Source of the DNA: Bacteroidales bacterium
GTDB taxonomy: Bacteria > Bacteroidota > Bacteroidia > Bacteroidales > ML635J-15
Direction of reading: 5' to 3'
DNA length: 64,000 nucleotides
Assembly: GCA_031275085.1 (NCBI GenBank)
Contig: JAISPG010000063.1
Span: 1-64,000, forward strand
Notes under the pieces: model-generated
Seen by the model: only the letters and a program-made list of their open reading frames with translations
Databases searched by the model: none
What the model was told of the DNA's origin: nothing
Translations under genes and position numbers: made by a program
Part shown: in pieces, positions 16,403-18,730 of the stretch
How the letters are laid out: the number at the start of each line of letters is the position of its first letter
How positions within the stretch are numbered: position 1 is the first letter of the stretch

Positions 16403-16885
16403 ATGGAAGGCAAATATCTTATAAATGAAAAAGTATTGTCAGAAATAAAAGATTCTATAATAAATACTGATAATAAACTGGTAAAACTTTCCGGAATAAA
16501 AATTTCAGAACTAAAAGAACGTTATATAAAACTTGAAATGCCGTTGGGTGATGTTAATATAAACCATATCGGAACGGCTTATGCAATATCTATTGTTATG
16601 CTTATGGAAGTAGCAGGAGCTTCTTTGATAAGGGCTACATATGGAACATCAGAATATATTCCTATTATAAAGAGAATAGATATTCAATATATAAAACCGA
16701 CATCAGATACTCTTGTTTGTGAGTTAAAAATGACGGAAGAAGATGCTGAAAAATCGATAAGGCCTATAGAAGAAAGAGGACGTGGAAACTTTTTATTACC
16801 TGTTCTTGTTACAGATATTAATGGAAATGAAGTGGCAAAGGCAGAATTTACATTCTATTTAATACCACCTGATTACAAAATTTAA
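16403..16885 (+). CDS. Hot-dog fold thioesterase-like protein (PaaI/YiiD/DUF4442 type)
   Basis: The central helix segment HIGTAYAISIVMLMEVAGAS and the following strands of this 160-residue protein match the hot-dog fold of PaaI/DUF4442 thioesterases, which cleave acyl-CoA or acyl-ACP. The catalytic Asp/Glu near the central helix may be E53 or E70; I cannot assign it. It lies 93 nt before the biotin-less carboxyltransferase gene and may be co-transcribed with it, which would hint at an acyl-CoA substrate for the pair. Substrate unknown. Confidence 0.7.
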   Translation: MEGKYLINEKVLSEIKDSIINTDNKLVKLSGIKISELKERYIKLEMPLGDVNINHIGTAYAISIVMLMEVAGASLIRATYGTSEYIPIIKRIDIQYIKPTSDTLVCELKMTEEDAEKSIRPIEERGRGNFLLPVLVTDINGNEVAKAEFTFYLIPPDYKI

Positions 16886-16978: not shown

Positions 16979-18730
16979 ATGTCAAGAGAAATTAAATTTA
17001 GTCTTCTTTACAGAGATATGTGGCAATCCAGCGGTAAGTATGTACCAAGATTGGATCAATTGCGACAAATAGCCCCGGTTATTATAGATATGGGATGTTT
17101 TGATAGGATAGAGACTAATGGCGGAGCATTTGAACAAGTAAATTTATTGTATGGAGAAAATCCGAATACAGTTGTTAAAGAATGGGTAAAACCATTTAAC
17201 GAGGCTGGTATCCAGACACATATGCTTGAAAGAGCTTTGAATGGTATCAGAATGTATCCGGTCCCTGCTGATGTAAGGAGATTGATGTTTAAGGTTAAAA
17301 AGGCACAGGGAGTGGATATTTCCCGTTCTTTTTGCGGACTTAATGATCATCGAAATCTTGAATTATCTATAAAATATGCTAAAGAGGCAGGAATGATTTC
17401 TCAGGCAGCATTAAGTATTACTCATTCCGAAATACATACGGTAGAATATTATATGGGAGTTGTTTCCAAAGCCATGGAATACGGAGCCGACGAAATATGT
17501 CTTAAAGATATGGCAGGAGTTGGCCGTCCGGTAACTTTGGGAAAACTTGTTCATGAGATTAAAGCTGCTTATCCTAATGTAACCGTACAATATCACGGAC
17601 ATTCTGGTCCGGGTTTTTCGGTTGCTTCTATGCTTGAAGTTGCAAAAGCAGGGGTTGATTATATTGATGCGGCAATGGAACCTCTTTCCTGGGGTATGGT
17701 GCATCCGGATATAATTACTATACAAGCAATGCTTAAGGATGCAGGCTTCAAGGTTAAGGAAATAAATATGAAAGCATATATGCAAGCCAGATCTTTAACT
17801 CAAAAGTTTATTGATGAATTTTTGGGATATTGGATCAATCCTAAAAACAGGGAAATGTCGTCATTGTTGGTTGGCTGTGGTTTGCCGGGTGGAATGATGG
17901 GGTCGATGATGGCTGACCTGGAAGGTATTCATGCCGGAATAAATCAAACATTAATCGCTTCAGAAAAGTCTCCGTTAACTTTAGATGAATTGTTGGTAAT
18001 GCTGTTTGATGAGGTTCAATATGTATGGCCTAAATTAGGGTATCCACCGCTGGTAACTCCATTTAGCCAATATGTTAAAAATGTTGCATTAATGAATATT
18101 ATGTCGCTTAGCCAAGGTAAGCAGCGTTGGGAAATGATAGATAAAAATACCTGGGATATGATACTTGGAAAAGCAGGAAAATTGCCCGGACCTTTAGCAC
18201 CTGAGATTTTAGAACTGGCAAAAGCTCAAAATAAAGAATTTTATAACGGAATCCCACAGGATGCTTATCCGGATGAATTGGATAAATATCGTGCTGAAAT
18301 GATTGAAAACGGTTGGGAATTTGGTGAAAATGATGAAGAATTATTTGAGTTTGCAATGCATGATCGTCAATATAGGGATTATAAATCAGGAATTGCCAAA
18401 ACACGTTTTGATGAAGAATTTGCAACATTAGCGAATAAAAAATCTGAAAAAGTTACGAAATCGGTACCTGTTATAAATGATCCTAAAGTTAAGGAAATAA
18501 GAGCAAAAAACGCCGGCAGGATATATTTTGATCTTTCGTTGGATATGGATCCTCAGATAATTGAAAGAGAAGATAATGTTGTAGTCGGACAGAGATTATT
18601 CTATCTGGAATCTTACCATACATACGAAGCTATTGTTTCGGATTTTAATGGTAAAATTAAGGATATTTTAGTAGAAAACGGCGATATGGTAAGCCAGGGA
18701 GATATGATAGCATTGATTGAAACAGAATGA
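16979..18730 (+). CDS. Carboxyltransferase (pyruvate carboxylase B / OadA-like) lacking the biotinyl lysine
   Basis: This 583-residue protein has three domains: a DRE-TIM carboxyltransferase barrel (about 1-300), the PYC_OADA helical domain (about 300-470) and a C-terminal biotinyl-type domain (about 515-583). The barrel keeps the catalytic Asp and Gln of RDMWQS (D13, Q16), the lysine that is carbamylated in pyruvate carboxylase (LKDMAG, K176) and the metal histidines HGH (H206, H208). Two key residues are gone. The usual GTSQP motif reads GMVHP, so the proton-shuttling Thr is M240. The biotin motif AMKM reads SYHT, so the acceptor Lys is H547 (codon CAT, 18617-18619). The family is normally biotin-dependent (oxaloacetate or pyruvate chemistry). 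This member probably acts without biotin. No carboxylase or OadB partner is nearby. Confidence 0.9.
   Translation: MSREIKFSLLYRDMWQSSGKYVPRLDQLRQIAPVIIDMGCFDRIETNGGAFEQVNLLYGENPNTVVKEWVKPFNEAGIQTHMLERALNGIRMYPVPADVRRLMFKVKKAQGVDISRSFCGLNDHRNLELSIKYAKEAGMISQAALSITHSEIHTVEYYMGVVSKAMEYGADEICLKDMAGVGRPVTLGKLVHEIKAAYPNVTVQYHGHSGPGFSVASMLEVAKAGVDYIDAAMEPLSWGMVHPDIITIQAMLKDAGFKVKEINMKAYMQARSLTQKFIDEFLGYWINPKNREMSSLLVGCGLPGGMMGSMMADLEGIHAGINQTLIASEKSPLTLDELLVMLFDEVQYVWPKLGYPPLVTPFSQYVKNVALMNIMSLSQGKQRWEMIDKNTWDMILGKAGKLPGPLAPEILELAKAQNKEFYNGIPQDAYPDELDKYRAEMIENGWEFGENDEELFEFAMHDRQYRDYKSGIAKTRFDEEFATLANKKSEKVTKSVPVINDPKVKEIRAKNAGRIYFDLSLDMDPQIIEREDNVVVGQRLFYLESYHTYEAIVSDFNGKIKDILVENGDMVSQGDMIALIETE

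Follow-up and report, generated by a model that had tools for sequence, protein, structure and literature searches.

Can a carboxyltransferase of the pyruvate carboxylase B/OadA (PYC_OADA) type still take part in biotin chemistry when the lysine that should accept biotin is gone? The question is raised by a gene in a 64,000-nucleotide stretch of DNA from a Bacteroidales bacterium (GenBank assembly GCA_031275085.1, contig JAISPG010000063.1, positions 1 to 64,000; the whole stretch is called the window here). Its 583-residue product, the window protein, ends in a biotinyl-like domain whose biotin lysine is replaced by a histidine, H547. The initial annotation took this loss to mean that the protein had become a biotin-independent, metal-dependent lyase or aldolase. 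The loss itself is real and is shared by a whole family. We consider that the window protein is probably a carboxyltransferase subunit resembling 5S of Propionibacterium transcarboxylase, and that it uses, in trans, the biotin of a free carrier protein.

Loss of the biotin lysine across a family

For the family scan the best 80 matches listed were used; all of these are Bacteroidota by title, with 62–80% identity to the window protein. At an E value of 1e-20 a match was present in eight of 198 genomes of the class and in 53 of 149 genomes of the order, three of the 53 (G212, G260 and G292) having distant matches only. The genome of the window itself (3.08 Mb, 89% complete) holds no further match besides the protein. 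The 139 rows were sorted into SHORT (98 rows, including L166, which is a second, truncated copy of the same gene; no MK motif, median 593 residues), LONG (20 rows; AMKMEN or SMKMEN, median 723 residues), MID (17 rows; MK followed by T or V, median 622 residues) and a distant outgroup of four. In the six-frame search, the SHORT match of one genome (L148, G199:C17) is interrupted by a TGA. One bearer that can be cultured is Dysgonomonas sp. PH5-45 (L081).

The window protein is not a lone oddity: by alignment it is part of SHORT, a lysine-less Bacteroidota family related to biotinylated forms. In the 98 SHORT rows the biotin-lysine column holds Tyr in 67, Phe in six, His in four (the window being counted twice), Lys in two, Arg in two and other residues in the rest. 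Both lysine rows read GK and never MK, and MK is present in 17 of 17 MID rows. A sequencing error at H547, raised as a possibility in the initial annotation, is ruled out by the relative L002 (80% identity), which likewise reads ESYHTY, and by the absence of MK from every SHORT row. A quick tree of 138 rows (L166 was left out) places SHORT and LONG in one group (support 100) that excludes both MID and the outgroup; within it LONG is nested among SHORT, and the SHORT label costs four changes. On this tree the lysine may have been lost more than once, or the biotinyl domain regained in LONG; a single origin of the loss in SHORT would also be compatible with it.

At the level of sequence, the description of the window protein as a PYC_OADA-type carboxyltransferase with His for the biotin lysine and Met240 for the threonine of PycB holds. 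The 583-residue frame reads CAT at H547 and ATG at M240, and the protein scores above the Pfam cut-offs for PYC_OADA (59.4 bits; cut-off 27), HMGL-like (38.8; 29) and Biotin_lipoyl (28.1; 22.1). The metal site (D13, H206 and H208) and K176, initially reported as kept, are present in the window and invariant across SHORT, as is R85; the H208 position is Gln in three of 17 MID rows. By analogy with pyruvate carboxylase, D13, H206 and H208 are predicted metal ligands, K176 would be the carbamate lysine and R85 would belong to the keto-acid carboxylate site.

The threonine of the GTSQP motif, whose role we likewise assume from pyruvate carboxylase, is absent from the window protein, as first noted. 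In 97 SHORT rows its column holds Met in 57, Lys in 35 and Thr in five, and the biotinylated LONG relatives are mostly without it too. Among solved structures, transcarboxylase 5S (1rqb) has Pro here, two-subunit pyruvate carboxylase (5ks8) has Ala and OadA (2nx9) has Tyr, with a Thr one residue earlier, so that a one-residue alignment shift is possible. The threonine is thus not a general feature of biotin-dependent members, and given these structures and LONG its absence cannot be used to diagnose a new function.

A catalytically dead scaffold or regulator would be in keeping with the lost lysine and with a tail that changes faster than the barrel (42–54% versus 81–88% identity to four relatives). 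We regard it as very improbable, given that the active-site positions are identical in 97 of 97 SHORT rows and that the barrel has a nonsynonymous divergence (dN) of 0.10–0.16; the synonymous divergence (dS) was saturated or not computable, which makes the dN/dS ratio unusable.

Carriers and acyl-CoA partners elsewhere in the genome

12S-like genes (PF01039) occur in all 21 SHORT genomes tested, in each case with a Biotin_lipoyl match within a few kilobases, and the carriers of the inspected loci contain AMKM. The genome of the window has two such loci. The end of contig C22 carries mce, 12S (519 residues), OAD_gamma (112 residues) and carrier (151 residues, EAMKMEN), and contig C25 has a second 12S (514 residues) and carrier (104 residues, EAMKMNN). 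In the mechanism that we favour, the SHORT protein would act on oxaloacetate and pyruvate, with the carboxyl group passing back and forth from oxaloacetate to a biotin held on a separate small carrier, which in this genome is probably the 151-residue or the 104-residue protein. A 12S-like acyl-CoA carboxyltransferase would complete the reaction, which could be (S)-methylmalonyl-CoA + pyruvate -> propionyl-CoA + oxaloacetate or oxaloacetate + acetyl-CoA -> pyruvate + malonyl-CoA. What was once a biotinyl domain may remain for docking or for structure, with its lysine gone and, in most rows, Tyr at the tip.

The same carriers bear on the lyase or aldolase proposed initially. The lost lysine and the HMGL-like barrel, which is common to aldolases, would suit such an enzyme, but the PYC_OADA domain is kept, LPGGMMGSM and PPLVTPFSQ show little or no variation across 45 proteins, the nearest folds by prediction are those of biotin-dependent enzymes and carriers are present in 21 of 21 SHORT genomes tested. 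4-Hydroxy-2-oxovalerate aldolase (1nvm) has the barrel in common with the window protein, but aligns only to about residue 380 and with a lower Z (27), and the protein falls far below the NCBIfam cut-offs for HMGL-type aldolase models (36.3 versus 229 bits for NF006049; 31.4 versus 286 bits for TIGR03217). We therefore consider this activity improbable; of the earlier interpretation, the loss of the lysine stands and the biotin-independent chemistry is disfavoured.

No biotin carboxylase match was found in 18 of 24 SHORT genomes, either by PF02785 or by PF00289; completeness is 90% or more in 16 of these. Among the 149 genomes of the order, six of 24 SHORT genomes have the enzyme versus 83 of 125 others (Fisher p 0.0002, uncorrected for kinship). 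The total by PF02785, 89 of 149, agrees with the Bacteroidetes share in the relevant part of an older phylogeny, which gives biotin carboxylase of the ACC type for over half of its 20 Bacteroidetes genomes and for no Thermotogales (PMC3199775). Thermotoga maritima, included as a control genome, has FabD (PF00698) and OadB matches and no biotin carboxylase match, like many SHORT genomes. A carboxyltransferase subunit of a two-subunit pyruvate carboxylase, working with separate biotin carboxylase and carrier, would fit the six SHORT genomes with biotin carboxylase and the fact that, among PDB entries, the family profile matches 5ks8 best. The 18 genomes in which none was matched leave it hardly any probability.

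FabD was found in all 21 SHORT genomes examined, which presumably require malonyl-CoA for that reason. In G343 the second 12S and carrier stand in one row with FabD. A row of 12S, small carrier and FabD (L195, 4430–7292) was seen in a genome with no biotin carboxylase match.

Gene order, OadB and likeness to known systems

The strongest clue to the partners of SHORT comes from genomes with no OadB match. In one of them, G286, the gene order is SHORT–12S–tail–carrier (L144, 8783–12954), which by analogy would be the layout of a soluble transcarboxylase, with a decarboxylase lacking its membrane parts beside a keto-acid carboxyltransferase. G286 is one of four SHORT genomes, 98–100% complete, with no OadB match (the others are G205, G216 and G328). 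In all four a frame of 58–72 residues lies between 12S and carrier, at the place of the gamma gene of other genomes, and starts at most 40 bases from the 12S frame, which leaves no room for a membrane part. The short frame aligns with gamma in G216, G286 and G328, and in G205 it is assigned to gamma by place and motif only; that of G286 has no Pfam match. Most of the short gamma-type frames at L183, L184, L186 and L144 keep an ES..LTIK-like motif followed by SPW or LPW. Elsewhere, lysine-less OadA-type proteins with a C-terminal tail resembling OAD_gamma (SPWVL) adjoin an AMKM carrier (L209, 5047–6555; L210, 4629–6200), and 12S adjoins an OadA-type protein with AMKM at L211 and L212; these arrangements in the order appear to follow the same logic as the G286 operon.

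Several observations weigh against a 5S-like subunit with a free carrier. A 12S or carrier gene lies within three frames of SHORT in one of 98 rows only, that of G286 (many loci are short-flanked), and the window gene stands alone with neither adjoining. OadB occurs in 20 of 24 SHORT genomes, that of the window included. The tail that would serve for docking is the less conserved part of the protein. The genomes are related, so the Fisher values overstate independence, and SHORT is not the sole way of living without biotin carboxylase, because 35 of 60 genomes lacking it hold none of SHORT, LONG and MID. The window genome gives a weak biotin/lipoate ligase match only (E 9e-9, a 330-residue frame; 89% completeness applies); the other 23 genomes tested have better matches, such as a 246-residue frame at E 2e-21 in the congener G277. 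Finally, the curated model for the methylmalonyl-CoA carboxytransferase 5S subunit (NF008984) scores the window protein at 164.6 against a cut-off of 827 bits.

The frequency of OadB is what would be expected if SHORT were an oxaloacetate decarboxylase that borrows the Mmd carrier and OadB/MmdB, one Na+ pump then serving both methylmalonyl-CoA and oxaloacetate. OadB follows MID, the nearest lysine-bearing relatives, in 17 of 17 rows (one with an intervening frame), and the window genome carries a partial OadB at the edge of contig C32. Against this stand the four nearly complete genomes that have the short gamma tail only and no OadB match, and we judge a shared pump to be unlikely, if less so than a lyase.

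In transcarboxylase (EC 2.1.3.1), 5S works with separate 12S and 1.3S subunits and the biotin is on 1.3S, which agrees with the PDB names 1dcz and 1o78 among the matches. 5S (1rqb) and SHORT share the barrel and a PYC_OADA-like part, and neither has a biotin-bearing domain of its own or Thr at the aligned place. They differ in that identity is about 23%, SHORT has a biotinyl-like tail that 5S lacks, and the supposed SHORT partners resemble methylmalonyl-CoA decarboxylase parts that lie mostly elsewhere in the genome. The initial statement that every characterised member needs its own biotin lysine fails on 5S, since the 539-residue chain matches to residue 449 only and has no tail domain. Part of the literature on transcarboxylase describes three subunits (PMC2909200). 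OadA (2nx9) of the Na+-pumping oxaloacetate decarboxylase has the same fold as SHORT, and beyond SHORT and LONG no relatives are nearer than the OadA-like MID proteins, but OadA has its own biotin lysine and adjoins OadB, and SHORT has neither. PycB (5ks8) has barrel, PYC_OADA and biotinyl domain in the same order, but keeps the lysine and depends on a biotin carboxylase.

None of the 25 NCBIfam models listed (of 41 matching families) reaches its curated cut-off with the window protein, including OadA (TIGR01108, 228.2 versus 756.5 bits) and PycB (NF006761, 248.6 versus 402 bits), and the protein lacks the C-terminal biotin-accepting lysine that marks both. It resembles 5S in having no such lysine of its own, with a 12S-like gene and a biotin carrier elsewhere in the genome. 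We infer that the window protein is 5S-like in its working; it is not assigned to 5S, OadA or PycB because the curated tests for all three failed.

The features of the gene are collected in Table 1. No general conserved neighbourhood of SHORT was found. FabD follows SHORT in eight of 98 rows with at most two frames between, and since all eight are in one part of the tree they count as about one independent case. The thioesterase-like gene upstream of the window gene had been read as a clue to an acyl-CoA or keto-acid substrate; it was not found beside the relatives fetched, which rules it out as such a clue.

Table 1. Coordinates of the carboxyltransferase-like gene, its marked positions and the upstream gene in the window
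Feature	Position	Strand	Basis
Carboxyltransferase-like gene, SHORT form, 583 residues	16979..18730	+	ATG 16979 to TGA 18730
D13, predicted metal ligand, motif RDMWQS	17015..17017	+	D in 97/97 SHORT rows
R85, aligns with Arg of MLLRGQN	17231..17233	+	R in all SHORT, LONG, MID and outgroup rows
K176, predicted carbamylated Lys, motif KDMAG	17504..17506	+	K in all rows
H206-G-H208, predicted metal ligands	17594..17602	+	both His in all SHORT and LONG rows
M240, place of Thr in GTSQP, codon ATG	17696..17698	+	alignment
PYC_OADA domain, residues 344–474	18008..18400	+	Pfam
Biotinyl-like domain without lysine, residues 530–580	18566..18718	+	Pfam Biotin_lipoyl and alignment
H547 (CAT) where biotin-accepting Lys is expected	18617..18619	+	alignment
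DUF4442/YiiD-like thioesterase gene, upstream of the carboxyltransferase gene	16403–16885

The LONG form and carboxylation in Bacteroidales

The biotinylated LONG relatives lie in a different setting. An MCC-beta-like gene is within six frames in 16 of 20 LONG rows, and three of the other four are on short stretches. The neighbourhoods mostly contain enoyl-CoA hydratase and acyl-CoA dehydrogenase genes, several with HMGL-type and acyl-CoA synthetase-like genes, and no biotin carboxylase homologue is among the listed frames around any of the 20 rows. In leucine-degradation clusters at L121, L017, L126, L128 and other LONG loci, the OadA-type barrel continues into a biotinyl region like that of MCC alpha; for one LONG protein, the matches to its C-terminal region are carriers and the alpha chains of MCC and PCC. 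A biotin carboxylase frame of at least 580 residues is present in none of 16 LONG genomes versus 41 of 133 others (Fisher p 0.006, for related genomes), and four of the 16 have no biotin carboxylase at all. LONG thus seems to replace the biotin carboxylase subunit in these clusters and may be an oxaloacetate-driven 3-methylcrotonyl-CoA transcarboxylase; the biotin carboxylase of about 500 residues in the other 12 genomes could serve instead.

A wider, tentative picture, which we hold with less than even confidence, is that this Bacteroidales group carboxylates without an ATP-driven biotin carboxylase. OadA-type barrels would load the carboxyl group of oxaloacetate onto biotin, free in the case of SHORT and fused in that of LONG. 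From there 12S-like enzymes would form malonyl-CoA for lipids, methylmalonyl-CoA and, in leucine breakdown, 3-methylglutaconyl-CoA. The window protein would be the biotin-free version, in which the dead carrier domain, with a conserved Tyr at its tip, now serves for docking.

In the passages that treat it, a human gut genome survey reports the 5S/12S enzyme from no more than two genera, both actinobacterial (PMC9403272), and part of the phylogeny cited above sets aside very divergent transcarboxylase-like homologues (PMC3199775). A search of titles and abstracts found no report on the SHORT family, with subscription journals poorly covered, so that prior publication is possible. SHORT genes should not be annotated as pyruvate carboxylase or oxaloacetate decarboxylase. 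What began as an oddity of a lost lysine becomes an enzyme open to test, a probable subunit of a transcarboxylase in Bacteroidales. The interest of the gene lies in its bearers, many of which seem to be without the usual ATP-driven carboxylation enzyme; this raises the question of where FabD-bearing Bacteroidales lacking biotin carboxylase obtain malonyl-CoA; if the reading is true, a transcarboxylase could explain that supply.
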